Positions 18,401 through 36,183 of a stretch of 56,722 bases of DNA are shown one piece after another. Source of the stretch: Bacteroidota bacterium (lineage in GTDB: Bacteria; Bacteroidota; Ignavibacteria; UBA10030; BY39); the NCBI GenBank assembly GCA_030682385.1, contig JAUXOG010000133.1:1-56722 (forward strand). The letters run 5' to 3'. Every line of letters begins with the position of its first letter. The stretch's first letter is position 1. The notes under the pieces were generated by a model. It did no database searches and was not told the origin of the DNA. It was given only the letters and a program-made list of their open reading frames with translations. Made by a program: the position numbers and the translations under genes.

Positions 18401-21400
18401 TTGAAGACACCACCAACGAATACAGGTTTTCAAGCAAAGGCTGAATACAAACCCAATCAGGTAATAGTAAAATTTAAGACAGAGATTCTATCCACCAAAG
18501 CATCATCAATACGATCTGATGCGAATGCAACTGTTGCGAAGAAATTTTCATTGACAAGAGCTGAGCTATGGAACCTATCGGGTGTAACAGTCGAGGATGC
18601 AATTTCGAGATATAAAGATGATCCGTCCATTGAATATATTGAACCCAATTACGTTGTTCATGCGATTGATAAAATTCCGAATGATCCATTTTTCACACAA
18701 TTGTGGGGAATGCAGAAGATCAGTGCACCGGCGGCGTGGGATAGAACCACCGGTACGAATATCGTCATTGGTGTATTGGATACAGGAGTCGATCCCAACC
18801 ATGAAGATTTATCGACAAACATTTGGACGAATCCGGGAGAAGTAGCGGGCAACGGAATTGATGATGACGGTAACGGGTACATAGATGATGTGTATGGATG
18901 GGATTTTTTTAATAATGATAACAATCCATATGATGATAACGGACATGGGACACATGTTTCCGGGACAATCGCTGCTATAGGTAACAACGGTAAAGGTGTG
19001 GTAGGAGTATGTTGGTCAGCCAAGATCATGGCGTTAAAGTTCTTAAGTGCCGGGGGTAGTGGTTATACAGATGGTGCAATCAGTGCGGTGGAATATGCAA
19101 CGATGATGAACGCACGACTAACAAGTAACAGTTGGGGCGGAGGTGGATACTCACAAGGGCTGTACGATGCGATCCAGGCGGCAGGAAACGCCGGAGTACT
19201 TTTTGTTGCCGCAGCCGGAAATAGTTCAATGAATACAGACATCAACCCCAATTACCCGTCGTGCTATGACCTAGGTAACATTATTTCTGTAGCATCAACA
19301 ACATCGGATGATCAGATGTCATCGTTCAGCAATTATGGTTTGCTTACTGTAGATTTAGGAGCGCCCGGTTCCAATATTTACAGTACATTACCGGGAAACA
19401 ACTACGGCAGTTACAGTGGAACATCTATGGCAACGCCTCATGTTGCTGGAGTTGCAGGTTTGGTCTTATCGCTTAATTCTCACCTAGGTGGGTCAGATGT
19501 TAAAAATATCATTTTATCATCTATCGATCCAATTTCAGCGCTTGCAGGAAAAACAGTTACTGGGGGTAGACTCAATGCTTTTCAAGCATTGCAAAACACT
19601 CAAACTTGGATTAATGTTGAACCGCTCAGTGGTGTTATCCCTCCGGGCAGTTCAGCCGACCTGACAGTAACGTTCGATGCTACAGGATTATATGGAGGCG
19701 ATTACAATGCAAATATTTTGATTATAAGTAACGATCCTGATGAAGATACAGTTTCAGTTCCTGCTCATCTGCACGTAACGGGTGCACCTGATATTGCTTT
19801 TTCTGATACTGTAATGGATTATGGTAATGTGTTCCTTGGAGGAGCTTCGAGGGATACTCTGATTGTTTCAAATGTAGGAACCGACGTATTGACGGTAAGT
19901 AACATCAGTAGCGATAACAGTGATTATACAGTTGATATCACTAGTTTCAGTCTGAATCCTAGACAGCAACAAAAAGTTATCGTAACATTTACACCAACTA
20001 ATGTAGGTTTAAGTGAAGGATCATTAACTATCACAGGTGATGACCCTGATGAACCGATTGTAACAGTTGGATTAAGAGGTGTCGGTATTCTACCTCCAGA
20101 TATTGATGTTAAACCTGAATCACTTTTTGCTGATTTATTAACTGGCCAGACAAGGGTAGATACTCTAACGATCTATAATAATGGATTTAGTAATTTGAAT
20201 TTTAATATTTCTATTAAAACAACAGAATTGCTACAAAAACATACGGCAATCAATACAGAAATAAATAATGGAAATGTTAATCAAGCAGATATTCGTACTG
20301 AACAAAAGGTAAATAGAGAACCTACATTAAATGAAACTTCGCCGACTTCGAGCACGAGTAGAGCCGCTGGTGTTTATAGTGGAGATTATTTACAATTTGG
20401 AATAAGCGACTATGGCGAGATTATGCCTTTCCGGTATCCAATCGGTAATGAACATTTGGCAGTTGGCGCATGGATATCTGGTTACACGATTGCTTACAGG
20501 ATTGGCGGTTATGATAATATCAGATACGCATCTTATGATTACCGAAGTGGTATTATTCCTCTGTCATATACAGAAATAGTGAATGATCCATATCAGGTAA
20601 TTGTAAAGGTTGAAGCGCGAACAAGCGATGGGTATTTAAAAATCACTCGATTGTTTACTTTCACACGAAGTGATAAATATATTAATGTTAAAACGACACT
20701 TGAAAATGTTTCTGGATTATTATTAGAAGATATTGTATTTAAAAGTTATGCTGATTGGGATGTGGATGGTGACTACGGGGATGACAATTGGAACTATGAT
20801 ATGTCCCGGAATATGATATACGCATACGATATTAAATACACAACTATAGCAAGCAAGCAAACACCCGATGCGATGGATATTGATGGTTGGGGTGATTTTC
20901 AATCTAGAACAACGATAGTTAATTATCCAACAGGACCCGTATATAATTATGACGGATTGGAATTATTGCATTATAATTTAGGAAATATAGGAGGTGGCAC
21001 ATCAAAAGAAATTATTAATGCCTTTGGGGCGGGTGAAAATTTAACTGATCTACAAAGTGTAATTGACAGGGGTTTAAGAATTTCAGATTGGTTAGCCGTC
21101 AATCCTTTAATCGGGTTTGTTTCTCCGCAGGATAGTTTAAAATTAATTGTTCAATTCGATGCCTCTGGATTAAATGGAGGAAATTATTATGCAAATATAT
21201 TGATTTCGAGTAATGATCCTGACGAAGACACAGTAATCGTTCCAGCACATTTACATGTAACAGGTGCATCTGATATTGCTCTTTCGGATACATCAATTGA
21301 TTTTGACACAGTTTTCGTTAGTGTTACTCACCGGGACACACTTACAGTATCGAATGTGGGGACGGATGTGTTGAATGTGAGCGACATTACATCAGATAAT

Positions 21401-24400
21401 AGTGATTATACAGTTGATATCACTAGTTTCATTCTGAATCCTAGGCAACAACAAAAAGTTGTTGTAACATTCACGCCAAATAATTTAGGTTTAAGTGAAG
21501 GATCATTAACTATCACAAGTGATGACCCTGATGAGCCAATAATAACAGTTGGGTTACGAGGTGTTGGAGTTGAACCACCTGATATTAATGTAACACCCGA
21601 TTCATTATTTGCAGACTTGTTGACAGGACAAACGGAAGCTCAAACATTAACCATTAGTAATGCTGGTGCAAGTAATCTTCACTTTAATATATCTATTGCG
21701 TCTGCGTCTGGGAATAAAGCATCTAATTGCGTTGCTTCATATACACTCCCTTCTATAAAGATAGATGCTTTGAAAATTTCTGGTATCGATAAGTCAGAGA
21801 ACGATAATAAATCGTTGTCCCATCAGGAACTCTACGCACAAAATATAACTGCTCAATTACAAGACATGACAGGTAAATACATAGGAATTACAAATTCCTA
21901 TTACTATTATGTCATCTCGAGTGATTTGAAAAATAGGGGTGCAACAATACGGAACGTGGTTTTTCCAATATCGACATTATTATTAGATAGTTTGGATGTC
22001 CTTTTTATTGATGATGCCATATCAGGTGCATCAACATCCGATTTAAGCAAGATTCGTAATTGGGTGCAAGCGGGAAATGCTTTAATTATCCAAGGTGATA
22101 ACAATTCATCAATGTCGAACATTAATGCTTTACTTTCAGGAACGGGTATTCAAGAAACAAGTTTGGGAACATTTTATGATGCAATACTGACAAATATATT
22201 ACCGCACGATATAACGCGAAATGTGGACACAATAGCTGCGTGGGCGTATGGTTCGTATTGCACAGTTACTTTACCTGCCCAAACTCTTGTATTTGATAAT
22301 GTCGGTCGTACGCATGTTGCTGTGTCGAATCTTGGCTTAGGTAAAGTCATTGCTGTTGGAAATGAATTCAGTGAGGATTGGAACCTGTCGGGTGGTGATA
22401 CCCGGTTGCTTGCAAACCAAATGGTTGACTGGTTAGTAGGTGGATGTGATTTTCTTAGTGTAGTGCCAACTTCAGGAACAATTGCGCCGGGTAATTTAAT
22501 GGATGTTTCAGCAACATTCGATGCAACAGGTATGGATGGGGGCAATTATTATTGTATGCTTGAAATTTACAGTAACGATCCTGATGAAGATACTGTTACA
22601 GTTCCAGTACACCTGCACGTAACTGGTGCACCTGATGTATCGATATCGGATACGGTTTTAAACTTTGATTCTTTATTTATTGGTTTATCAAAGCGTGATA
22701 CATTAATTGTTACCAATGTTGGCACAGATATCTTAAATGTATATTCTATAACTTTAGATAACACTGATTATGCATTAGATACTACACACTTCAGTTTAAT
22801 GCCAAGACAGAATCAGCCCATTATCGTAACTTTTACACCGAATAATGTAGGGATAAGCGAGGGAACTTTAACCATAACAAGTAATGATCCTGATGAAGAG
22901 ATATTGGAAGTGGATTTATTTGGTGCGGGAACTGAACCGCCTGATATTGCAGTGACGCCTGATTCGCTGAGTGCAGATTTGTTTACCGGAGCGACGACAA
23001 CTCAGACGTTGACGATCAGTAACACAGGCACGAGTGATCTACACTTTAATACTGAGATTAACTTTCGAATATTGATTGTATTAAGTCAGGAGAAAAAAGC
23101 GGCAATAGGCTTTTATGCTGATCAAAATAGAATAGGCTCAACTAATCAGCTTCCTCACTCGTTTATAATTCCAGATAAAAAGAGTGAGCGTAAATTAGCT
23201 ATAGGAGATGTTTTGGGAACATACTACAATTTCCCCTATGCTAATACAGGTATAGCATGGGTAGGTAATGATTTGTATGTGGTGGATTGGGGTGGAAGCA
23301 TGTTACGTCGTTATAATACTAATACTCAACAAGTTGTCGCAAGTTATAGTATTCACCCCTCACCGTATGGCATAGCGTGGGATGGACAGTACCTATGGAT
23401 TGGAAATGGTTCTGGAAACATCTATGGATACAATTTGAATGGGAATCTTGTCGGTTCCTTTAGTACACCGTTTTATGATTATCCTGCGTTGGCATGGGAT
23501 GGACAATATTTTATTGTTAATCGAGCGTTTAGTAATTCTCCAACATTTTATCGTATAAATTACTCTGGAGTGATTATTGAATCATTCTCTTCCTCATATT
23601 CAAGCATTATAGACCAGACTGTATGGGTGCCTTCTCATCTTGATGGTGAGTTGTGGGGAAACAATCCTAACAATGGAAGTATTCTTCAATTAAAGCTACA
23701 AAGTGGTATAGCTAGTGTTATTCAATCATTTCCATTTTATGACAACGATTTTTCATACACTCTTGGTCATAATGGGACAGATTTATGGTGGAGTGATTGG
23801 AATGGTCCATTATTTCAAATTGATGATGGCATTCAAGAGTTGCGTTGGTTGAGTGTGAATCCAATCAGCGGGACGGTTCCAGCAAGTTCTGCAGTGAATG
23901 TTGATGTTTCGTTTGACGCAACAGGTTTAATTGGTGGCGACTACTATGCCGACATCATAATAAAAAGTAACGATCCAGATGAAAATCCAGTAATAGTTCC
24001 TACTCATCTACATGTAACCGGCGTTCCAGATATTAGTATTTCGATTGATACTTTAAAGTTTGGTTCTGTATATGTTGGTACAACACAAACGCAATCATTA
24101 GATGTATTTAATCAAGGCACGGATACATTAATAGTTAGTGAGGTAACTTCAAATATAAGTAATTATTATTCACATCTGACTAATTTTAAAGTTTTACCGG
24201 GATCTCAGCGTGATATTTTGGTGTCATTTACACCGAACACTATCGGAAGTATTGATGGAATTCTTTCTTTTGCGAACAATGACCCTGATGAGCCTTTGGT
24301 GTATATTTATCTTGCTGGAAAAGGAATCACTCCTCCGGTTATTAATATAAGTCCCGATTCAATGTTCATAAAAATGAGTATTGACGATAGTTCAGCAAGG

Positions 24401-27229
24401 ATACTAACGATCGAAAATTCTGGAGGGAATTCTCTAAATTATTCTTTACTTATTTTGGCAGATGATTCAAATCTAAAATTTTCTTCACTATTCTCTCAAG
24501 CTTCTACTCAATACACAATTCCTTTGCGTATCGAAGACTATGTCGGGTATTCTGGCGTCGTCGAGTTTGGCATTCATCCTGCAGCCTCGTATGGTATTGA
24601 TCCTCATTTAGGTGAATCCGAAATATTCCCTCCATTTCCTTTAACATTTGATGCGAGATTAATTGATCTCCCCGGTAGAAACAATTTGGGTATGGGAACC
24701 TGGCGCGATTTGAGAACATCAATCACCACTACACAGGTTGATACATATCTTGTTAAGTATCAACCAAGTGAAAATAGTTTCCCAATGAAATTAACTTGGC
24801 AGAATAATCTTATTGATTATGTCGGTCGATCTAAGCTTATAGATACAAGAGGTGGGCAGATAGTTAATATCGATATGCTAAGCTCAACAAGTGTTACTAT
24901 CACGGATTCAGAAATAGATAGTTTGTACATTATTACAACAGGTAGAGGTATATTGCCTGATTGGATTAAAGTATCACCAACTTTTGGAACTTGTCCTCCA
25001 AGTGAAACTCACGAGGTTACCATAAGAGTAAACTCAAAGGGTCTTAATAGCGACATTTATTCTGCTTATCTAAAAATTAACAGTAACGATCCAGTTAGAC
25101 CAAGTATAACGTTTCCAGTTACTTTGGAAGTTAAATCGCCTATAGTAACCGTGGCTACAGATTCTATCGTCATCAACCTCGATCAAGGGATAAGTACAAC
25201 ACAGACTATTACACTTGGTAATGTCGGTGAGGGGGATTTATTATTTGAAGTAGTAAACACATTTTCTGTACCTGTACAAAAGGAAAAATTGACTGGAGAT
25301 AGAGATATTGATGCTCAAAATTTATTATCTCTAATCGAACCGCCACAACCCGGTACGCATGCGGAGCGTAATTTAAAAACTTTACAATTAATACGAAATT
25401 CAGGTGAGTTAATTTTCTCAGATGATATGGAAAGCGGTATAAATGGTTGGACTACAGTAGCTCTAACCGGTCAAGACCTCTGGCATTTAACTCAATCAAA
25501 CTATAACAGCCCGAACAAGAGCTGGTGGTGCGGTATTGCTTCACAAGGCAATTATTTTAACGGACAGCGAATAAATAATGCGCTTATTTCTCCTCCTATA
25601 GATTTACGTGGGCGGACATCCGCTACCCTCGAATTTTTTGAGTATTACCACACAGAGCATAATTATGATCGATGTATGGTCGACGTCTCTACTAATGATG
25701 GCGAAAGCTGGGAACAACTCAGAGGTGATTTCTGGAATGCACCATCCGGACTTAGTGGTGGTTGGGTTTTAAGTAGTTATCAATTAACGCCATACATCGG
25801 AAATATTGTCAAGCTCCGATTCTATTTTGATACTGGTGATCATTATAATAACAGATTTCCAGGTTGGTGGATCGATGATGTTCTTGTCCACGGTTTAGGT
25901 GGTTGGTTGACTGTAAATCCCACAAGTGGAAGAGTTTTACCAAATACTAGTATAGATATAACAGCTAATGTCGACGCTACTCGACTATATGATGGCGAAT
26001 ATTATGCGAACATCGTGATTAATAACAACGATCCCAATAACCGGAAAAAGACCATTCCATTACGTCTTACAGTTAATCCAGAAAAAGTTATCTCATTACG
26101 AGTAGCAAGTGGATGGAATTTGTTGTCCGTTCCGTTAACAGTTGAGGATTTCAGGGCGCGTATTCTCTTTCCTGATGCATCTTCCGCGGCATTTGGTTTT
26201 GAGGGACGTTATCGTGACTTTCAGACTCTCGAAAATGGGAAGGGTTACTGGATAAAATTTTTATCCGAACATACTGTTCCTATCAGAGGTATTCCTATTA
26301 TTGAAGATACGATTGACGTATTCGAAAAATGGAATATTATCGGAAGTAATACTTACCCTGTTGCGATAAGTGATTTAGTTACTGTACCTCCACTTACAAT
26401 ATTATCTAATTTCTTCGGATACAAAAACGTATCTGGATATTTTAATCCCGATACTCTGGTACCTGGCAATGGATATTGGGTAAAGTTTAGCCACGCGGGT
26501 CAGATTATATTGAGATCGTTTAGACCTCCAGGGTTATCATCTCCAGTCTTGACGAAATCAATCAATATAGAGGACATGAATTATCTGTTGATTGAGGATG
26601 CAGACGGTAGAAAGCAAAAATTGTATTTTGCAATGAAGTCTGATGACATCAATCTGGAACGATACGAACTTCCCCCCTTATCACCCGCAGCCGATTTTAG
26701 TGTTCGCTATAGTTCAAATCGTAATCTTGAATTATTAGATGGTAATGTCCCTCAATTTTTTCCAATCCTTATTTCTAATGCAAAATATCCGCTGAAAGTC
26801 TATTGGGACTTGCAAACGGAAATTAGCAATGTAGCGATCAAATTTGGCAACCAAGAAATTCTATTGGAACACAACGACTCAACCAACATTACTAATCCCG
26901 ATTTGGTTGTTAAGTTAATAGTTAGGGCGACAGTTGCTATTCCAAAAGAGTTTGCACTTGAGCAAAATTATCCAAACCCGTTCAACCCGACAACAACCAT
27001 TAAATATGCTCTACCCGATGAAGCAAAAGTAACTATCAACATATTTAATATATTAGGTCAGAAAGTTGAAACTCTTATCGACGACATCCAATCAGCTGGA
27101 TATAAGGACATCAAATGGAATACAAAATCACTTGCAAGTGGAATTTACTATTACCGTCTTGAAGCAACAAGTGTGAATAATCCAAGTCAGAGGTTTATTC
27201 AAATACGGAAAATGATCCTCTTGAGGTAA
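15464..27229 (+). CDS. Giant secreted protein with M6 metallopeptidase and S8 subtilase domains, repeated linker cassettes and T9SS sorting domain
   Basis: A protein of 3921 residues in one unbroken frame. Signal peptide: about 1-27. M6 (immune inhibitor A-like) metallopeptidase: about 60-460, zinc motif HEAGH at 257-261 followed by FGLPDLYD. Subtilase with an I9-like propeptide: about 990-1380, triad Asp1106 (LDTG), His1161 (GHGTH) and Ser1321 (GTSMATP). The remaining domains include one after M6 (about 530-755), a glutamine-amidotransferase/ThuA-like one (about 2110-2320), a propeller-like repeat region (about 2540-2790), a MAM/choice-of-anchor J-like region (about 3290-3480), and a GWNLLSVPL-type domain (about 3550-3690). 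Between them sits a cassette of about 200 residues with DATGL-GG-Y, SNDPDEDTV, HLHVTGAPDI, SNVGTDVLNV, VTFTP and LTIS, resembling ASH/choice-of-anchor D folds. The C-terminus is a sorting domain from about 3829. Likely a cell-surface protease. Processing into several chains is possible. Confidence 0.9.
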   Translation: MSKINFNLIKFFFISIISVIFCVNSFSSIPPHPRVDSLIQEGKIALPYHLDKKAEASARGINGTTPFVEGFRPYEVPKGKKSTTFKAIAILVRFSDNPSQVAESYFDNLLYGTSGNTMRTYFTEVSYGQLDIVTVNLPSSIGWLNMPQTYSYYVNGNNGFGSYPQNAQKLTEDAVAAANATVDFSQYDNNSDGYVDALFIIHTGQGAEYTGNPNHIWSHKWQTSTPQLVDGVYAYVYSMEPEYWATPGDMTCGVYAHEAGHSIFGLPDLYDYGRDSRGLGRWSLMASGSWSGTLGSSPAHPDAWSRYAMGFVTPTVVSTNVNDVNIPAVKDNPTIFKLWTNGSSSTEYFLVENRQKIGFDTYLRGDGLCIYHIDETQWGNDNQWYPGYTDYGHYKVALEQADGLWDLEKNINTGDTSDTYPGSTNNTIFSNSTIPNSKDYNFNNTSVSVTNISASGITMTANFSVEVLPPEIEVTPDSMFADLYSGDDTTQILTINNSGLGELAFNIVVEDITTIMKRLSSKPNSSLSSSAPIPLINISKGDVDTRIYPAMTLGSGGPDPYGYRWKDSDEPGGPAFNWMDVSSGTSINLSDDSYITGIPLGFNFNYYGTDYTTVNIMSNGWVSFNGYHFWYPPTVPYIEVFDPYLGCIVPFGKDLYPPTGNYIKYKTFGISPNRYFVVEYNNIPNFGGGENKTFEIIFFEGSNQIKFQYLTAPDDPNSIGIESPDQTMGMGNGGTGDLFISPTVVKNNYAIEFSSQPPWLTATPSSGVVPPSSSVNIDVKFSAIGKDGGEYDANIFIINNDPDEDTVRVPAHMHVTGAPNITLSDTAFDYDTVFIGVASQETLRVSNVGTDVLNVSNITSDQADYTVDITNFGLSPGQSQNVVVTFTPSVVGERVGTLTITSDDPDEGTVTVDLVGVGAEPPNIVITPTTMSSNLFTGEMETQTLTISNTGASNLTYNISLDYFGLASIDKVNVSVKQTLKTPPTNTGFQAKAEYKPNQVIVKFKTEILSTKASSIRSDANATVAKKFSLTRAELWNLSGVTVEDAISRYKDDPSIEYIEPNYVVHAIDKIPNDPFFTQLWGMQKISAPAAWDRTTGTNIVIGVLDTGVDPNHEDLSTNIWTNPGEVAGNGIDDDGNGYIDDVYGWDFFNNDNNPYDDNGHGTHVSGTIAAIGNNGKGVVGVCWSAKIMALKFLSAGGSGYTDGAISAVEYATMMNARLTSNSWGGGGYSQGLYDAIQAAGNAGVLFVAAAGNSSMNTDINPNYPSCYDLGNIISVASTTSDDQMSSFSNYGLLTVDLGAPGSNIYSTLPGNNYGSYSGTSMATPHVAGVAGLVLSLNSHLGGSDVKNIILSSIDPISALAGKTVTGGRLNAFQALQNTQTWINVEPLSGVIPPGSSADLTVTFDATGLYGGDYNANILIISNDPDEDTVSVPAHLHVTGAPDIAFSDTVMDYGNVFLGGASRDTLIVSNVGTDVLTVSNISSDNSDYTVDITSFSLNPRQQQKVIVTFTPTNVGLSEGSLTITGDDPDEPIVTVGLRGVGILPPDIDVKPESLFADLLTGQTRVDTLTIYNNGFSNLNFNISIKTTELLQKHTAINTEINNGNVNQADIRTEQKVNREPTLNETSPTSSTSRAAGVYSGDYLQFGISDYGEIMPFRYPIGNEHLAVGAWISGYTIAYRIGGYDNIRYASYDYRSGIIPLSYTEIVNDPYQVIVKVEARTSDGYLKITRLFTFTRSDKYINVKTTLENVSGLLLEDIVFKSYADWDVDGDYGDDNWNYDMSRNMIYAYDIKYTTIASKQTPDAMDIDGWGDFQSRTTIVNYPTGPVYNYDGLELLHYNLGNIGGGTSKEIINAFGAGENLTDLQSVIDRGLRISDWLAVNPLIGFVSPQDSLKLIVQFDASGLNGGNYYANILISSNDPDEDTVIVPAHLHVTGASDIALSDTSIDFDTVFVSVTHRDTLTVSNVGTDVLNVSDITSDNSDYTVDITSFILNPRQQQKVVVTFTPNNLGLSEGSLTITSDDPDEPIITVGLRGVGVEPPDINVTPDSLFADLLTGQTEAQTLTISNAGASNLHFNISIASASGNKASNCVASYTLPSIKIDALKISGIDKSENDNKSLSHQELYAQNITAQLQDMTGKYIGITNSYYYYVISSDLKNRGATIRNVVFPISTLLLDSLDVLFIDDAISGASTSDLSKIRNWVQAGNALIIQGDNNSSMSNINALLSGTGIQETSLGTFYDAILTNILPHDITRNVDTIAAWAYGSYCTVTLPAQTLVFDNVGRTHVAVSNLGLGKVIAVGNEFSEDWNLSGGDTRLLANQMVDWLVGGCDFLSVVPTSGTIAPGNLMDVSATFDATGMDGGNYYCMLEIYSNDPDEDTVTVPVHLHVTGAPDVSISDTVLNFDSLFIGLSKRDTLIVTNVGTDILNVYSITLDNTDYALDTTHFSLMPRQNQPIIVTFTPNNVGISEGTLTITSNDPDEEILEVDLFGAGTEPPDIAVTPDSLSADLFTGATTTQTLTISNTGTSDLHFNTEINFRILIVLSQEKKAAIGFYADQNRIGSTNQLPHSFIIPDKKSERKLAIGDVLGTYYNFPYANTGIAWVGNDLYVVDWGGSMLRRYNTNTQQVVASYSIHPSPYGIAWDGQYLWIGNGSGNIYGYNLNGNLVGSFSTPFYDYPALAWDGQYFIVNRAFSNSPTFYRINYSGVIIESFSSSYSSIIDQTVWVPSHLDGELWGNNPNNGSILQLKLQSGIASVIQSFPFYDNDFSYTLGHNGTDLWWSDWNGPLFQIDDGIQELRWLSVNPISGTVPASSAVNVDVSFDATGLIGGDYYADIIIKSNDPDENPVIVPTHLHVTGVPDISISIDTLKFGSVYVGTTQTQSLDVFNQGTDTLIVSEVTSNISNYYSHLTNFKVLPGSQRDILVSFTPNTIGSIDGILSFANNDPDEPLVYIYLAGKGITPPVINISPDSMFIKMSIDDSSARILTIENSGGNSLNYSLLILADDSNLKFSSLFSQASTQYTIPLRIEDYVGYSGVVEFGIHPAASYGIDPHLGESEIFPPFPLTFDARLIDLPGRNNLGMGTWRDLRTSITTTQVDTYLVKYQPSENSFPMKLTWQNNLIDYVGRSKLIDTRGGQIVNIDMLSSTSVTITDSEIDSLYIITTGRGILPDWIKVSPTFGTCPPSETHEVTIRVNSKGLNSDIYSAYLKINSNDPVRPSITFPVTLEVKSPIVTVATDSIVINLDQGISTTQTITLGNVGEGDLLFEVVNTFSVPVQKEKLTGDRDIDAQNLLSLIEPPQPGTHAERNLKTLQLIRNSGELIFSDDMESGINGWTTVALTGQDLWHLTQSNYNSPNKSWWCGIASQGNYFNGQRINNALISPPIDLRGRTSATLEFFEYYHTEHNYDRCMVDVSTNDGESWEQLRGDFWNAPSGLSGGWVLSSYQLTPYIGNIVKLRFYFDTGDHYNNRFPGWWIDDVLVHGLGGWLTVNPTSGRVLPNTSIDITANVDATRLYDGEYYANIVINNNDPNNRKKTIPLRLTVNPEKVISLRVASGWNLLSVPLTVEDFRARILFPDASSAAFGFEGRYRDFQTLENGKGYWIKFLSEHTVPIRGIPIIEDTIDVFEKWNIIGSNTYPVAISDLVTVPPLTILSNFFGYKNVSGYFNPDTLVPGNGYWVKFSHAGQIILRSFRPPGLSSPVLTKSINIEDMNYLLIEDADGRKQKLYFAMKSDDINLERYELPPLSPAADFSVRYSSNRNLELLDGNVPQFFPILISNAKYPLKVYWDLQTEISNVAIKFGNQEILLEHNDSTNITNPDLVVKLIVRATVAIPKEFALEQNYPNPFNPTTTIKYALPDEAKVTINIFNILGQKVETLIDDIQSAGYKDIKWNTKSLASGIYYYRLEATSVNNPSQRFIQIRKMILLR

Positions 27230-27310: not shown

Positions 27311-29953
27311 TCACATACTAAACCAATACGTTACTTTTATCATAAAAATATTATCAGCATTTGCATCAATAAGGTTTGCAATATCTCTTCCAAATTTCAT
27401 ACTCCCCGGGTCAGTATTGTCTTCCCGGCTTTGTGTCCATACAAAAAATAATGTTGAGCCCGGCAAATATTCCCATCTTAATACTGCATTGCCGCGCAGC
27501 GATTTGAAATTAAATCCTTTCTGAATAGTGAATGTTTTTAAAGGACCTGTCCCATCGGGGTCAATCATATAATCTCCGTTCTCATCCCTCGCTACTGTTG
27601 AGCCGTTCTCACCGTAGTTATTAAAATCAAATGTATTTGGTCGGGAAAGCTCTTTAATGTTGCTGTATTTTCCCATCGTGAAATACGGTTGGGCATACAA
27701 CTGTAAACTTAGTGTTGGTGTAAATGTCCAGTTTAATCTTATGCTTGCTGAAATTGTTGTCCGATCTAACTTTCCAAATATATACCTCTTCCCATAAGTT
27801 GCAATTACATTTTCGTCAGTTATTTCACCGAGATACTGAGCGATTGCGTGACTGAAGCTGTATTCTGGGGAGAAATTAAGATTTATATAAGAAGTCGGTT
27901 TCCAGCTTATACCAGTTCCGAAGTAAGTACCATTGCCTCCAAATTCGTTTTCGTTGTGTCCGGAATAAAGATTAAAAACAATTTGCTTTCTTGAGTCGGT
28001 AAAACCGGAAAGGCTAATATCATAACTCGAAGGTGCAAGCATTTTCGGCCCGCCGCGTGTTCGTTGATTATCTGTAGATAGTGTCGAGTAGAATACCTGT
28101 CCATTGACTCCCCAATAATTTAGAAAGGTACAATTATATCCCATAAAAAATAATTCCATAGTTTTGTCGCCACCGAAATCATAGCTTCGTGCGGTAGCAA
28201 CAAAAATCGATTTATATCTTGAAAAATTATCCGGTTCATACCATTGGTATCCAACGAGTATATGTCCGTTTATTTGGTCAGCTCTGTAAAGATATCCCAA
28301 ATCGTTTACATCGAAGGATGGAGATATAAATCCAAAAGCAGAATTGAACATCCAATTACCTTTTTGTTTGTTAAGGGCAAACCTGCCCGCCGAACCGGTG
28401 AGCGAGGTTGCATTGCTGTCCAACGTTATATAATTTGCATCGGGCCGCTGGAAGTAACGTTGCGGCGACTTTTGCAGAGATAAGATTCTATCTTTTGTCG
28501 CGGCTGCATGACTAAGTCCAACCCATCCGGTTGTTACCCAAGTTCTATCGTCGTCAAGGAAAACCCAGCCGTCGTTTGCCAGAGTATAGTGCCTGCGGTT
28601 TAATAATCCGGTTAAATCTTTATTTCGCAGGTCTCTCTCTACTGCAGTCAGTAAATAACCGATTCCATAATAACCGTCGTTAAATTCATACTGTGTTCTG
28701 CCAACTCCATAGAATGTACGCGGCTCAACTTCTTCTCTGCTTCGCACTCCGTTATTTTCTACATCAGCCATTTCTTTTTGAGTTACCGCTGCAAGAATTC
28801 CTAACGATTGTTCGTTATTAAGTTTCCCGCTAATTTTTGCCGCACCGAGAATTGTGGTTTGATTAGGTGAATTATTAAAACCGTTCAAATATCTCGCGGG
28901 TGCTTTCCCTATTCTGCGACTGTAAAAGAATTGTGGATTACTCCAGTTTAAATTCATATTGTTATTGGCGCCACCTCTTCCGAAATTAAAAATGTTCGAG
29001 CCTTCGATGAAGAAAGGTCGCTTCTCGCTGTAATAAGTTTCGAAAGCCGATAAGTTGACTTCAGCGGGGTCAACTTCAACCTGTCCGAAGTCGGGGTTGA
29101 TAGTTGCATCTACAGTAAGGTTGCTGCCGATGCCGATTTTAAAATCCGCACCGATATTTTTTGGATACTTTGTTCCGTCATTGAACGGATCACTCTTATC
29201 AAAATTTTTTATAAACTCGCCACCCGATACAACGTACGGTGTAATTTCAAATCGAGAGGGGGGCGAAATATTTTTTATCCCGTTCAGGTAAGCAAAGCGA
29301 GAAACAAATCCGCTTTCCTTCTTCGGGGTCATCACAAAAAAATCACTTTCATTGTTTCTGGCGATTTCTCTCAATACATTCAAACCCCAAACACACTCAT
29401 CTTTTTTTGTAAATCTGAGTTGGGAATATGGTATTCTTATTTCCACGCACCATCCTTGATCATCAATACTTACACCGCGTTCCCAGACTCCGTCCCACGT
29501 ATCATCGCTCCATGAATCGTTATAAAAAGTTCCATCACCTATTGAACCAACCGGATTTACAGCAAAGTAATATGCCGTTCGTCTGTCGAGGTAAGAATCT
29601 ATTGCAACGTATAACCAATCAGATTTTGGTGAATTGTCTCGGCGTGCTAATAGACCTGTTATCGAATCAGGTGAAGAGTCATACATTCTGGCACTGACAT
29701 ACAAAGCATTATCATCGTAACCAATCCAGAATTCTGTACGTTGAGTAGGTTTTGCTCCTTCGGTTGGTTCACTCTGTGTAAAATCATCCAATCCCTTTGT
29801 CTGATAAAGTTCTTCGGACAACTTTCCATCAATGATTAATGGATGATTCAATCGGGTCGCGGTAACTGACTTTGATTCTACCGGACTTTTATTAAAGCCG
29901 TGTGTTTGTAAAATAAAAAATAATAGAGTAATAAGAATAGTTACAATTTTCAT
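27311..29953 (-). CDS. DUF5916 outer-membrane protein with CBM9-like N-terminal domain
   Basis: A protein of 880 residues from the ATG at 29953, which begins a clear signal peptide (MKIVTILITLLFFILQTHG). The frame extends upstream to 30001, but those 16 residues would spoil the signal peptide. Residues about 25-230 form a CBM9/DOMON-like sandwich (LIIDGKLSEELY, then YDDNALYVSARM). After that comes the DUF5916 region with VDATINPDFGQVEVDPAEVNLSAFE-type sequence and many alternating beta strands to the end, consistent with an outer-membrane barrel. The family is common in Bacteroidota and often near carbohydrate or peptide degradation genes. No substrate is known. It is divergent from the gene at 30098. 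Confidence 0.85.
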   Translation of the reverse strand: MKIVTILITLLFFILQTHGFNKSPVESKSVTATRLNHPLIIDGKLSEELYQTKGLDDFTQSEPTEGAKPTQRTEFWIGYDDNALYVSARMYDSSPDSITGLLARRDNSPKSDWLYVAIDSYLDRRTAYYFAVNPVGSIGDGTFYNDSWSDDTWDGVWERGVSIDDQGWCVEIRIPYSQLRFTKKDECVWGLNVLREIARNNESDFFVMTPKKESGFVSRFAYLNGIKNISPPSRFEITPYVVSGGEFIKNFDKSDPFNDGTKYPKNIGADFKIGIGSNLTVDATINPDFGQVEVDPAEVNLSAFETYYSEKRPFFIEGSNIFNFGRGGANNNMNLNWSNPQFFYSRRIGKAPARYLNGFNNSPNQTTILGAAKISGKLNNEQSLGILAAVTQKEMADVENNGVRSREEVEPRTFYGVGRTQYEFNDGYYGIGYLLTAVERDLRNKDLTGLLNRRHYTLANDGWVFLDDDRTWVTTGWVGLSHAAATKDRILSLQKSPQRYFQRPDANYITLDSNATSLTGSAGRFALNKQKGNWMFNSAFGFISPSFDVNDLGYLYRADQINGHILVGYQWYEPDNFSRYKSIFVATARSYDFGGDKTMELFFMGYNCTFLNYWGVNGQVFYSTLSTDNQRTRGGPKMLAPSSYDISLSGFTDSRKQIVFNLYSGHNENEFGGNGTYFGTGISWKPTSYINLNFSPEYSFSHAIAQYLGEITDENVIATYGKRYIFGKLDRTTISASIRLNWTFTPTLSLQLYAQPYFTMGKYSNIKELSRPNTFDFNNYGENGSTVARDENGDYMIDPDGTGPLKTFTIQKGFNFKSLRGNAVLRWEYLPGSTLFFVWTQSREDNTDPGSMKFGRDIANLIDANADNIFMIKVTYWFSM

Positions 29954-30034
29954 ATTGGATATTCCGATTATGTTAAAATCTAAACTTACTACGATAGGCA
30001 TAATAATTAGTTACAAAATAAAGGAATAATTTGT

Positions 30035-31574: not shown

Positions 31575-32822
31575 TTACCATCTTCTTGGAACATTTTTCA
31601 CACAGCGAACTGTATCGCGTGCAATAAGCAACTCTTCGTTAGTCGGGATTACATAAGCTTTTAATTTAGATTCGGGTTTTGTTATGAGCCCTTCTTTTCC
31701 AGCTACAATTTTGTTGTTTGCCTTTTCATCTAATTCTAAACCGAAAAACTCCAATCCTTTGCAAATGCGTTTCCGGATTTCGGAACTGTTTTCGCCAATA
31801 CCACCAGCGAAAACTATTGCATCAGCACCCTGCATACCGGCAAGGTAGGCGCCGATATATTTTCGAGCACGTCCACAAAAGATATCAACTGCGAGGCGCG
31901 CACGGCGGTCTTCGTGTTCTTTTTCTTCAGCTAACAAATCGCGCATATCGTTTGTAAGTCCGGATAGACCTAACAGTCCCGATTGCTTGTTTAATATAGC
32001 GTAGATTTCATTCATCGTCATTCCTTCCTTATGATGGAGGAATTCAATAATCGCAGGGTCCATATCGCCGCCGCGGGTTCCCATTACCAAACCTTCGAGA
32101 GGTGTAAGTCCCATTGACGTATCGAATGAATCACCGTTCTTGATAGCGCATGCTGAGCATCCGTTACCAAGATGAAGCGTGATGATATTAACTTTTTCTC
32201 TTTCGATGTTTGCTAATTGTCTGTAGCGGTATGCGATATACCGGTGAGAGGTTCCATGAAATCCGTATTTACGGATTTTATGCCTGCGGTATAATTGATA
32301 AGGAATTGCGTAAAGGTACGAAGTTTCGGGCATTGTGGAATGAAAAGCTGTATCGAATACGGCGACTTGCGGAACACCGGGACCTAACAGTTCGCGTGCT
32401 GCATTAATTCCTTTTAGATTTGCGGGGTTGTGCAAAGGTGCCAACTCGATGCAATCTTCGATTCCTTCAATTACTTCGTCGTTAATTAAAGTTGACATTG
32501 TAAATTTCTCAGCACCGTGAACTACACGATGCCCGACAGCATGAATATCGGCAAGCGAATTTATTCCGTTTAATTTCGATTCGGGTGAAATTATCCATCG
32601 TAAAATAAAATCTAACGCCGACCTATGATCGCGAAGAGGTATTGCCTGTTTTATTTTTGGCTGACCTTCGACTTGTAAAGTAATTAAAGCCTGGCTTCCG
32701 ATTCGTTCCAAGTAGCCGCTTGCTATTCTTTTATCCTGATTTTTTTCAATGAGCTCTAAATCTGTTTTGATGATTTGAAATTTTACTGATGATGATCCAC
32801 AGTTGATCACTAAAATATTCAT
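31575..32822 (-). CDS. ackA: Acetate kinase
   Basis: Converts acetyl phosphate and ADP to acetate and ATP, or the reverse, in the cytoplasm. The protein is 415 residues from the ATG at 32822, which has a GGAG ribosome site 7 bases upstream. A longer frame to 32834 lacks one. Family motifs are present: N-terminal NCGSSSVKFQ, VHGGEKF-type VVHGAEKF, FDTAFHSTMPE with the catalytic Asp, RYGFHGTSH-type KYGFHGTSHRY, the glycine-rich TRGGDMDPA segment, and FAGGIGENS near the end. Length matches the usual 395-415. No phosphotransacetylase gene adjoins it, so its partner must be elsewhere. The BamA-like gene lies 80 bases upstream on the same strand. Confidence 0.95.
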   Translation of the reverse strand: MNILVINCGSSSVKFQIIKTDLELIEKNQDKRIASGYLERIGSQALITLQVEGQPKIKQAIPLRDHRSALDFILRWIISPESKLNGINSLADIHAVGHRVVHGAEKFTMSTLINDEVIEGIEDCIELAPLHNPANLKGINAARELLGPGVPQVAVFDTAFHSTMPETSYLYAIPYQLYRRHKIRKYGFHGTSHRYIAYRYRQLANIEREKVNIITLHLGNGCSACAIKNGDSFDTSMGLTPLEGLVMGTRGGDMDPAIIEFLHHKEGMTMNEIYAILNKQSGLLGLSGLTNDMRDLLAEEKEHEDRRARLAVDIFCGRARKYIGAYLAGMQGADAIVFAGGIGENSSEIRKRICKGLEFFGLELDEKANNKIVAGKEGLITKPESKLKAYVIPTNEELLIARDTVRCVKNVPRRW

Positions 32823-32902
32823 TGTTTTCTCCATTTATAATTGTTTATCGAAAGGACTGTTGTAAGGTGATGGAGAAAGATAAGAAAATATTTTGAAGAA
32901 AG

Positions 32903-34348
32903 CTAAAAAGGTCTGCTCATTCTAAAAAATACACTTACCGGAGATTTTACATCCGTTTTCCATGCAAAACCCAAACGGTATTTTCCATCTCGTGAACCGA
33001 TTGCAAATCCCAAATCGCTTTTCAGTGAATTGAATTTAAAAGTATCAAACCCCTCATCAAAAGTTACGTCATCGGCTACGTTGTTAATATAACCGGCGTT
33101 GTAAAATAAAATTAAATTCAAATTACTCAGCATTGAAAATGGGAAACCCGTATCGTCGCTGAACATTTTTCCGTTGACTACATATTCTATATTTGCAAGT
33201 AATAACCGGTTACCTGTTAATTCTTTATACATATATGCGGGGAGCGTGCTTATTCCGCCAAGTTCGTATGCGCGTTGAACCGGTAAAATTCCATTCGATG
33301 TGGCTGCTCTGAACCGGAAATTTAGATTATCATATTTCCCGATTGGTTGATACCGGCGTGCATCAAAAACGTATCTATTAAATTCATAATCGCCTTTAAA
33401 AGATTTACCGGCAAATTCTGCTGTGAACGCTGTACTCCATCCAGCCATGTGTAGTTTGCGATCATCGATCTTGTGTAAATCAAGTGCGAGTATAATGCTG
33501 TGGATTTTTCCATCGTTTATTTCCGGATTAATTCTGAAAGATTTTTTGGTGCGGAATAAAGACCAGTTAACATTATTATTCAGTGAAGCGTATTCGTCGT
33601 TGGCAAACGAAATTTTAAGTTGCATATCGGCTAATTGGTTTCGTGTGTAATATCCAGCCCAAGTCGAAAAACCTGAACGCAAAAAGTAATCGCGGTAATC
33701 GTAGCGAAGTAATAAAGCATTAAGAGTGTTTTCCAAATTTCCAGTAAGCCACTGATCGCGTGTATCTACGAGACTGTGTCCTTCAATCCCAAATTCAAAA
33801 AGTCTATTATCGAATCCAAACTGCTGCGAGGCGCCGGCTTGGTATTCCCATTTGTGAACTCCGAATCCATAGCCGATCGACCCAAACAAAACAAATTTTC
33901 TTTCCCTGTCCCAGAAAAATTTGTGCGGCGATTGTATTCCGAGGAATAATCCTTCCGCACGATTATACCGGAAAAGAAATTTATCATTCAGGTTGTCCAA
34001 CGATATTTTAGTTGAATAATTACGTGGAATCCCGCGATCAGTTGGAAATGAATACAAACTGGATCTCTCTGACTGTGGAAATTCATACTCGAAGGTTTCA
34101 TTACCGTATTGGCAATTTTCAAATTCGATACTGTCGGCGTAACACTCCTCATCCTCTTCTGAATCATCGTCAAATATTTTGGTACCTAATTCCCGCTCAA
34201 CCTGTGCAAACACATCTTTTACTATGTTATCAACCCGCTTTTTAATACTTCTTTTTTTCGTTTCCGAAGTAGAGTCTTGTGCGAAACTTCCATTAATCGG
34301 AAAAGCAAAAATAAGTAATAAAGTCAATAAAGTTGTAGTTCTGATCAT
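32903..34348 (-). CDS. BamA/TamA-like outer-membrane beta-barrel protein
   Basis: A protein of 481 residues with a signal peptide (ends SFAQ, about residue 24), a charged linker with a short acidic run (DDDSEEDEE, about 60-68), and a long region of alternating beta strands. A surface-antigen-like stretch near residues 370-410 (RAYELGGISTLPAYMYKELTGNRLLLANIEYV) matches the C-terminal half of BamA/TamA and patatin-type barrels. The chain ends in Phe, typical of barrel proteins. POTRA domains are absent, so it is not the essential BamA. It lies 47 bases downstream of the four-repeat protein on the same strand and may be co-transcribed with it. Confidence 0.6.
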   Translation of the reverse strand: MIRTTTLLTLLLIFAFPINGSFAQDSTSETKKRSIKKRVDNIVKDVFAQVERELGTKIFDDDSEEDEECYADSIEFENCQYGNETFEYEFPQSERSSLYSFPTDRGIPRNYSTKISLDNLNDKFLFRYNRAEGLFLGIQSPHKFFWDRERKFVLFGSIGYGFGVHKWEYQAGASQQFGFDNRLFEFGIEGHSLVDTRDQWLTGNLENTLNALLLRYDYRDYFLRSGFSTWAGYYTRNQLADMQLKISFANDEYASLNNNVNWSLFRTKKSFRINPEINDGKIHSIILALDLHKIDDRKLHMAGWSTAFTAEFAGKSFKGDYEFNRYVFDARRYQPIGKYDNLNFRFRAATSNGILPVQRAYELGGISTLPAYMYKELTGNRLLLANIEYVVNGKMFSDDTGFPFSMLSNLNLILFYNAGYINNVADDVTFDEGFDTFKFNSLKSDLGFAIGSRDGKYRLGFAWKTDVKSPVSVFFRMSRPF

Positions 34349-34395: not shown

Positions 34396-36183
34396 TTATT
34401 TGTTATCATCTTCTTTGTAGAGTGTTATTCCCCAATATTGTGCATCTTCCGGTGGGGTATCGTTCCAGCTATTGTATGAGTGCGAATCATCGGTTCGATA
34501 CCGCAGGCGGTATTCCCCTTTATCGAGTAAAATTGTTGTGTTCACAATTCTGTTTTTACGGGCACCGCCGGCATGAAATGTCATTGAATAAGTCATCTCC
34601 CAGATTACTTTTCCGGTGCTGGCGTTTTCGATAAAGCCATAGTCGAACATCTGGTCCCGCTGCCCTTCACCAATCGAGTAGATTCGTATGCGGGTTGGTT
34701 CGTTAAGTTTAAAAGTTTCTAACTGATTTGCATTGTCGCGCACACGTACAATTTGAGCAATAATATTTTTGTCCCGTTCCGGTGTATATTTATCGACCGT
34801 ACTTTTGTCGAATTTATCATTATCAGTATAAATTGTAATTCCCCAATGCTCTTGATCGTATGGCGGCGAAACGTTCCAGTCGTTATAAGAATGAGAATCA
34901 TCGCTTTGAAAAGTAACTATGTAATTGCCTTTTACGAGATGAACAATTTCGTCGATCATTCTATTTTTTGTTCCGCCTCCTGCGTGAACAGTTTTATCTA
35001 CATTCATTTCCCAAACTTTTTCTCGCGTTTGTGCATTAATAATCCAGCCATAATCTGCCATTTGCCGCCGCGAGGAATATCTTTCGCCGATAGCATATAT
35101 CCGCACATCCATATCTTGTTTGAGTGTAAATCCTTCGCTGCGATTTTCGCTGTCGCCAACTTTCGTTATTGCAGTAATTACATTTTTATCGTCGCTGTAA
35201 GTAAAAAGATTGAACGCATTTCGGTCGGCTTCCGATTGTCCCATCAGCGTGATGCCGTAGTTTAATGGGTCGTAAGGTGGCGCCTCATTCCAATCGAGAT
35301 ATGAGTGCGAATCGTCAGTGAAATAATAAATGATATATTTACCCGGATTGAAATTAACAGTTCCATCGAATTTTAAATTTTTATCGGCACCGCCGGCTTT
35401 TGTTGTATTGCTTTGTTTCATTTCCCATATCCGTTTCCGCGATTTAGCATCAAGTATAAATCCGTAATCTGACAGGTCGTCGCCTCGCACTCCTTCGCAT
35501 AAAGCGTAAATATGAATTGCGACCGGTTTACTTAAAATAAAACCTTGTTGTATGTATTCATTTTCACCTATCCCAATTGATTTGTAGAGAACATTCGGAA
35601 AATCTTTTGGTGGATTAAATAATGATATTTCAGCCCGTTCGTCTGCTAATAACTCGATGCCCCAGTTTTTAGAATTTTTCATCCACTCTCTGAAGATATC
35701 AATACCGAACCAGTCTTCTATCCACGAGGCGATCCAATCGTGCCTGCCTCCAATACTTATAATATCACTGCTGTTCCTGTGGTCGATATTAGCCCGGATA
35801 TTTGTAAATGTCGATTGATAATCGAAATACGTTGCAGCGAAGTAAACCTCGAACGATCCTTTTGGCAGCGTAATAAAATCATCGTACTTCCTATCGCTGC
35901 CGGTTAAACTCGTGTTATCGCGCGTCATCAGCCAAACTTTTTCGCGTGTGTCCGAATTGATTATCCAGCCGTATGCGAACAACTTGTCGCGATAGTCGCG
36001 TTTTTTTTCTGAAGCGGCCCCCCTTGCTTTGATGTGAATTGTAGTTTGTTCATTAAGTTTAAAGCCGCCCGATTTTAATTCTGCGCGGCTAAAATCTTTT
36101 AATTCAATGAATGTTTTTTCACCACCGATTACAAAACCGGTTGTTAGCAGCGAAAAAAATGCTATAACAATAATTTTATTCAT
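34396..36183 (-). CDS. Exported protein with four copies of an unrecognised repeat
   Basis: A protein of 595 residues with a signal peptide (about 1-20, ending VIGG). The rest consists of four related units at about 41-130, 210-325, 345-455 and 480-590. Each has an opening F-L-----IHIYA or similar, then DYGWIINA-TREKVWEM, a T--AGG--KN turn, a GKY strand and, in units 2-4, SDDSHSY-DWN--PPYD followed by WGITLY. Unit 1 is the most divergent, has lost the DDSHSY part and carries an insert of about 70 residues. The Asp/His/Ser-rich signature could bind metal or sugar, but that is inference. I do not recognise the domain. Composition and strand suggest co-expression with the barrel gene downstream. 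Confidence 0.75.
   Translation of the reverse strand: MNKIIVIAFFSLLTTGFVIGGEKTFIELKDFSRAELKSGGFKLNEQTTIHIKARGAASEKKRDYRDKLFAYGWIINSDTREKVWLMTRDNTSLTGSDRKYDDFITLPKGSFEVYFAATYFDYQSTFTNIRANIDHRNSSDIISIGGRHDWIASWIEDWFGIDIFREWMKNSKNWGIELLADERAEISLFNPPKDFPNVLYKSIGIGENEYIQQGFILSKPVAIHIYALCEGVRGDDLSDYGFILDAKSRKRIWEMKQSNTTKAGGADKNLKFDGTVNFNPGKYIIYYFTDDSHSYLDWNEAPPYDPLNYGITLMGQSEADRNAFNLFTYSDDKNVITAITKVGDSENRSEGFTLKQDMDVRIYAIGERYSSRRQMADYGWIINAQTREKVWEMNVDKTVHAGGGTKNRMIDEIVHLVKGNYIVTFQSDDSHSYNDWNVSPPYDQEHWGITIYTDNDKFDKSTVDKYTPERDKNIIAQIVRVRDNANQLETFKLNEPTRIRIYSIGEGQRDQMFDYGFIENASTGKVIWEMTYSMTFHAGGARKNRIVNTTILLDKGEYRLRYRTDDSHSYNSWNDTPPEDAQYWGITLYKEDDNK

Follow-up and report, generated by a model that had tools for sequence, protein, structure and literature searches.

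The window analyzed here is a 56,722-nucleotide stretch of DNA from a Bacteroidota bacterium of the class Ignavibacteria (contig JAUXOG010000133.1 of assembly GCA_030682385.1). On its minus strand lies a gene for an exported protein of four tandem units (herein P0001), followed by genes for an outer-membrane barrel (herein P0002) and an acetate kinase. The features at the locus are listed below, with residues in P0001 numbering.

34396..36183, minus strand: gene for the exported four-unit protein P0001 (595 aa; open reading frame [ORF] with ATG start)
36124..36183, minus strand: signal peptide of P0001, residues 1-20 (hydrophobic N terminus, judged by eye)
35605..36123, minus strand: unit 1 of P0001, residues 21-193, degenerate; framework residues (e.g., W84, G109) and strands kept, putative E, D, D, N, H site gone
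35665..35832, minus strand: enlarged loop of unit 1, residues 118-173, with a predicted helix at 150-171 (BLASTP and model)
35194..35604, minus strand: unit 2 of P0001, residues 194-330; putative site E230, D239, K268, N269, D290, S292, H293, W298, N299
34786..35193, minus strand: unit 3 of P0001, residues 331-466; putative site E367, D377, K406, N407, D428, S430, H431, W436, N437
34399..34782, minus strand: unit 4 of P0001, residues 468-595, modeled alone; putative site E506, D514, K543, N544, D565, S567, H568, W573, N574
32903..34348, minus strand: Omp85-superfamily/DUF5686-like outer-membrane barrel P0002 (PF01103, 30.6 bits against a cut-off of 24)
31575..32834, minus strand: acetate kinase gene, downstream of P0002
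31481..31519, minus strand: terminator-like hairpin of 17 pairs after the acetate kinase gene (consensus scan only)

The P0002 gene lies 47 bp downstream of the P0001 gene. The order repeat, barrel, acetate kinase is the same in four other genomes examined of the window's family, and the hairpin is a possible end of this three-gene unit. Elsewhere in the window, a 3921-residue ORF (15464-27229) contains a peptidase M6 domain, a subtilase (S8) domain, many HYDIN/ASH-type Ig-like stretches, and a T9SS C-terminal sorting domain; a DUF5916 protein with a weak CBM9-like N terminus (27311-30001) is found near the repeat gene in another locus (L042) too. The PAS/GAF histidine kinase encoded upstream of P0001 (36363-39860) was considered as a conserved partner and rejected, a match of more than 400 residues being present in 1 of 40 relative loci (L041); matches of 400 residues or shorter fall outside this count.

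P0001 comprises four tandem units of ∼130 residues apiece. Each of the six unit pairs gives a BLASTP match; units 2-4 match each other with E values of 1e-40 to 3e-34 or 1e-30, and unit 1 matches units 2-4 with E values of 3e-9 to 3e-15. An initial annotation, made from the letters of the DNA alone, had described a four-unit exported repeat protein at this position, and the exact ORF, the hydrophobic N terminus, and the matching of every unit pair agree with that description. The motifs that it listed (DYGWI, WEM, AGGxxKN, and DDSHSYxDWNxxPP) are also present, with many of their columns invariant across 71 aligned homologues. Its account of unit 1 holds as regards divergence and fails as regards a 70-residue insert, the extra loop being smaller: ∼56 residues compared with 20 for the DDSHS loop of unit 4, a net gain of ∼36 (37 gap columns in the BLASTP alignment). 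The enlarged loop takes the place of the DDSHS motif and is not an addition to it. As P0001 has a signal peptide and matched no sorting domain or other family, a periplasmic location is the simplest reading and the most likely one; the protein may instead be at the cell surface.

The repeat is an uncatalogued domain family, real and conserved, inside a known superfold. P0001 matched no family in Pfam (at E up to 1), NCBIfam, or PADLOC, and its matches in PHROGs were at chance level. Sequence searches of the Protein Data Bank (PDB) reached best E values of 0.05 (protein query) and 1.7 (unit-profile query) and gave no family. Unit 4 alone matched 0 Pfam families, CUB (PF00431) included; CUB and PPC are also absent among 25 of the 33 Pfam families listed for 131 units, among which weak matches to DUF6786 occur in 14 units (best E 0.0007) and to DUF5013 in 3 (best E 0.0018). 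The initial annotation had been unable to place the repeat in any family, and a profile search with a single unit likewise gives no confident known domain. We found no description of this domain in the open-access literature, in which a nameless domain is hard to search for.

The family is widely spread. P0001 is present as a single copy in its own genome and has homologues in 46 of 60 relatives, two of the 46 matches being fragments (G011 and G031) scored as present. Matches occur in 37 of 197 genomes sampled from the class and in 51 of 296 phylum genomes; the unit profile again gives 51 of 296. Among GTDB genomes, 456 stretches fit a search pattern, 425 of which encode a relative. The best 80 of these 425 come from Ignavibacteria, Calditrichota, KSB1, Zixibacteria, Gemmatimonadota, Latescibacterota, and a few others, with four of the loci sitting on three chromosome records. 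Four units are present in all 80, a count biased by the selection of these loci for similarity to the full-length protein; among the phylum loci, L074 gives five unit hits, of which one is probably split, and L079 gives three. ORFs at fetched loci were subject to mechanical pruning or filtering; the repeat gene of L072 and that of L073 were masked by a longer ORF. Two four-unit genes (L133 and L139) lie on one Gemmatimonadota chromosome record, CP070758.1.

The domain is also used singly, in membrane sensors and on a hydrolase, which is a new observation. A single unit occurs in 14 sensor proteins of ∼1190-1320 residues from nine genomes (L061-L068 and L070). A Pfam scan of four sensors finds Reg_prop propeller stretches and Y_Y_Y in all four, with SpoIIE as the output in L061, HisKA_3 in L062, and HisKA with HATPase in L066 and L067. 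The other ten align with the L061 protein over almost all of the latter's length, SpoIIE end included, so that 11 of the 14 sensors appear to be SpoIIE-type. The L061 cluster also encodes HATPase_c_2, STAS, and one more SpoIIE protein, which we take to be the make-up of a partner-switching module. The unit is at residues 258-370 in L062 and at ∼530-690 in the other sensors; given this difference, either propellers acquired the unit on several occasions or the propeller underwent rearrangement. Sensor genes of this kind can be clustered: four lie in a row at L064:1978-17577 (1250-1261 aa, one unit each), and L065 and L068 contain pairs. The hydrolase (L069:4041-5603) is a 520-residue serine hydrolase of the beta-lactamase family that carries one unit as a C-terminal appendage.

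The relationships among units were analyzed with FastTree on the sensor units and on units 2-4 from 34 four-unit proteins, which represent the phylum loci and one in three of the GTDB loci. A single clade contains every one of the 14 sensor units, with one outsider (support 0.94). Grouping by position in the protein prevails for unit 4 (29 of 34, two outsiders) and unit 2 (28 of 34, seven outsiders) and is weaker for unit 3 (17 of 34, one outsider).

Structure prediction, which the initial annotation had suggested as a check, gave confident jelly-roll models for both P0001 and unit 4. Whole P0001, modeled by AlphaFold2 with 71 sequences, has a pLDDT of 89 and a pTM of 0.83, with residues 4-12 forming a low-confidence helix; in preparing this 71-row alignment, 8 of the 80 loci were dropped (stop inside the joined match range), and L105 and L151 were also left out. 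Unit 4 alone, modeled with 131 units, has eight strands (pLDDT 92.3, pTM 0.86). In the unit model, strand 3 has E39 close to its end, strand 4 has D47 close to its start, and D98 comes just past strand 7 (unit-4 numbering; adding 467 gives the P0001 residue number). Foldseek comparison of the unit 4 model with the PDB returned no match at E 0.001 or better. The top VIA-align match is a Kremen CUB domain (Z 8.2, rmsd 2.6, 96 residues aligned), followed by the PPC structure 5sv5 (Z 7.9, rmsd 2.8, 91 aligned) and the collagenase collagen-binding domain 5iku (Z 7.8, rmsd 3.2, 97 aligned); further down are GOLD 5azy (Z 7.1, rmsd 3.8, 88 aligned), the C1s CUB domain 1nzi (Z 7.0, rmsd 2.9, 95 aligned), PliG 4dzg (Z 6.9, rmsd 3.2, 91 aligned), and MASP-1 CUB2 3pob (Z 6.8, rmsd 3.0, 94 aligned). 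Neighboring rows of this ranking tie, and Z values of 7 to 8 are common without a true relative. The superfold of these confidently modeled jelly-roll β-sandwiches is thus CUB/PPC-like; CUB, PPC, GOLD, and others tie on Z, and none is assigned as the family.

Conservation of polar residues was counted in 84 four-unit proteins, drawn from the 80 GTDB loci and 20 phylum loci. D47, N77, D98, and G118 are present in 84 of 84 proteins in each of units 2, 3, and 4; E39 is kept in 83, 84, and 84 proteins and H101 in 84, 84, and 83, respectively. The near-invariant set is thus E39, D47, N77, D98, and H101. The sensor units keep E39, D47, K76, N77, D98, H101, N107, and P111 in 14 of 14 cases, with S100 replaced by Gly in 5 and W106 by Phe or Tyr in 6. 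The initial annotation had pointed to conserved Asp, Ser, His, and Trp as a possible binding pocket; Asp and His are borne out, and Ser and Trp vary (to Gly and Phe in sensors).

Unit 1 provides an internal comparison. W61, G89, and Y91 are retained in its sequence in all 84 proteins; the E39 position is Ala or Gly in 59 and the D47 position is Ala in 65, and positions D98-H101 are mostly gaps or other residues. This joint loss, with framework residues intact, suggests that the site residues form one functional site that is dispensable for folding, and it is the best evidence for a single functional site in units 2-4. The suggested pocket thus stands to the extent that its residues behave as one site: units 2-4 and the sensors retain them, and unit 1 has lost them jointly.

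Near-identical charged residues in three copies, together with the use of the same domain in membrane sensors, indicate that the domain probably recognizes something at the cell envelope. Our preferred reading, on which we are evenly divided between acceptance and doubt, is that P0001 is a soluble exported protein, most likely periplasmic, of four CUB/PPC-type jelly-rolls with a putative cation-dependent site for an envelope ligand. The site would be formed by a Glu where strand 3 ends, an Asp where strand 4 starts, and the Asp-x-Ser-His following strand 7, together with the Lys-Asn and Trp-Asn loops. It would bind a divalent cation, probably calcium, and through this cation an envelope ligand, much as basic groups on partner proteins are bound by CUB domains of the calcium-binding type. 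P0001 would then have three connected binding sites, one in each of units 2-4, with unit 1 as a structural cap. The lone unit of a sensor would pass this type of recognition on to a kinase or SpoIIE-type phosphatase. A more specific version, which we hold only tentatively and regard as somewhat doubtful, is that a bacterial recognition module with a CUB-like cation site is shared between P0001, as a soluble multisite periplasmic receptor capturing a class of envelope or extracellular ligand, and the propeller sensors (kinase or SpoIIE), where it would be the insert that reads the ligand, so that the sensors would report the same class.

An alternative places the function of P0001 with the neighboring barrel: the two proteins would be a dedicated pair, with P0002 exporting P0001 to the surface or holding it at the outer membrane. 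The 47-bp gap in the window is consistent with this, as is the distribution in two families, the window's own and another (f1 and f2), in which the barrel is adjacent in 11 of 11 genomes having a close barrel (E below 1e-50). Among the best 80 of the 425 GTDB loci, a homologous barrel is near the repeat gene in 16: downstream in eight (L093 included, where the joined match range overruns the repeat gene), 4 kb away in one (L097), and upstream in Calditrichota/KSB1, where the order is reversed, directly in five and across one gene in two. Against a dedicated pair, presence of the two genes is uncorrelated over the 60 relatives (both genes in 27, repeat only in 19, barrel only in 11, neither in 3; Fisher p 0.22), 38 of which have a close barrel, and 16 of the 27 genomes with both have them apart, the 11 adjacent pairs all belonging to f1 and f2. 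The barrel is present in the window's own genome as one close copy and one remote one. P0002 showed no match to a POTRA family in a search with E values of up to 1, and other lineages have unrelated neighbors of the repeat gene, such as asparaginase_2, transketolase, and PrmA. We consider a dedicated pair unlikely.

Coupling to the barrel, which the initial annotation had put forward, thus lacks support as a general rule: 19 of 46 repeat-bearing relatives lack a close barrel. Two families keep the gene pair strictly, and Calditrichota/KSB1 show it again with the order reversed; in many other genomes the genes are apart or one is absent. The uncorrelated presence rules out the barrel as an obligate partner, and the pairing is one that recurs and is not required. 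Under our preferred reading of P0001 as a binding protein, it would probably work beside an Omp85-like barrel in the window's family and in Calditrichota/KSB1, and elsewhere without a neighboring barrel.

Other genes near the reversed pairs were also recorded. Scanned upstream barrels (L140, L142, L156, and L160) have a bactofilin match at the N terminus, weak in three, and a DUF4097 (toastrack) or LiaF-like protein adjoins the repeat gene in scanned L142, L150, L156, L149, and L160. A row of barrel, four-unit protein, and DUF4097 toastrack protein is found at L142:1813-5985, L150:4277-8549, and L156:1630-5814; the bactofilin-like N terminus of the barrel was matched in L142 and L156 of these, and the row resembles an envelope operon.

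Tandem β-sandwiches and calcium-stabilized loops are common in structural proteins, and the repeat could on these grounds be a periplasmic spacer or scaffold whose polar residues merely stabilize loops. We judge this improbable, since unit 1 keeps the fold without the site, so that the fold is independent of it, and the same site is retained in the sensors. That the unit is an enzyme, with E, D, D, H, K, and N, all invariant, as its catalytic site, is about as improbable: the strictly conserved polar set does include His and Lys, and one unit is fused to a beta-lactamase-family hydrolase, but most of the folds to which the unit was matched belong to binding domains and an insert in the propeller region of sensors fits binding better.

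For a nameless domain family that is spread across Ignavibacteria, Calditrichota, KSB1, Zixibacteria, Gemmatimonadota, and others, the analysis supplies a predicted fold, a defined candidate site, an internal control (unit 1, which lacks that site), and a connection to membrane signaling. The question of the ligand becomes testable on a single 128-residue domain.

Several known systems offer comparisons. Two-partner secretion (TpsA/TpsB) sets a POTRA-bearing barrel beside an exported partner, whereas P0002 shows an Omp85 match without POTRA. A closer likeness is to the Omp85/TpsB proteins without POTRA designated "noNterm" in PMC4104836 (section 10), P0002 likewise being a barrel without a recognized N-terminal domain; the homologous barrel of Calditrichota/KSB1 differs from both in its mostly weak bactofilin-like N terminus. 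The sensors resemble hybrid two-component systems (HTCS) with Reg_prop propellers and Y_Y_Y, similar sensors in related genomes bearing the unit, and the sensor domains of Bacteroides HTCS are described in PMC3243724 as binding oligosaccharides. Unlike in HTCS, the unit here comes as an extra insert, and most of the sensors (11 of 14) look SpoIIE-type; P0001 itself is also unlike HTCS, as propeller, Y_Y_Y, and output domain are all missing from its Pfam matches.

Among folds, PPC (the collagenase collagen-binding domain, PF04151) ties with CUB and shares a C-terminal accessory use, as on the L069 hydrolase. Membership of PPC by sequence was rejected, with hhalign probabilities of 0.8% (local) and 0.1% (global) against 25 of 30 PPC loci, and the acidic pattern described below fits just two of the 25 PPC sequences. 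Membership of CUB by sequence was rejected as well: comparison with 12 bacterial CUB sequences (12 of 13 loci, partial L168 left out) gave hhalign probabilities of 0.7% and 2.0%, with 21 columns aligned in a TD-x-S stretch only. As hhalign links the units to neither family, we propose a CUB-like cation site as the mechanism and do not claim CUB membership. CUB domains carry conserved cysteine pairs; units 2-4 have one Cys in total (C229) and so no pair, unlike CUB (PF00431). The units also differ from CUB in their extra AGGxxKN, His, and WNxxPP motifs and in having no Pfam match or profile homology to it. They are like the CUB domains of C1s, MASP-1, and Kremen in being, as predicted, jelly-rolls of comparable size used in tandem.

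The likeness to calcium-binding CUB domains extends, purely as a sequence pattern, to the order Glu, Asp, Asp-x-Ser, common to units 2-4 of P0001 (E230-D239-D290-x-S292, E367-D377-D428-x-S430, and E506-D514-D565-x-S567). PMC5300068 gives the calcium residues of MASP-1 CUB1 as Glu49, Asp57, Asp102, Ser104, and Asn105 and those of CUB2 as Glu216, Asp226, Asp263, and Ser265, and describes a partner Lys contacting such calcium-binding residues. By that numbering, Glu-Asp spacings of 9, 10, and 8 in units 2, 3, and 4 compare with 8 and 10 in MASP CUB, while the Asp-Asp stretch is 51 in the units as against 45 and 37. A pattern of this type is found in 125 of 131 units, in 15 of 15 sensor/hydrolase units, and in 9 of 12 bacterial CUBs. 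It was composed after the data were seen and also fits 17% of composition-shuffled units, which makes it a weak test. The metal could be other than calcium, since the invariant His, at the place of MASP-1 Asn105, is unusual for calcium. If calcium is bound as proposed, bacteria would have in this site an equivalent, whether through common descent or convergence, of the site with which complement CUB proteins recognize partners in a calcium-dependent way.
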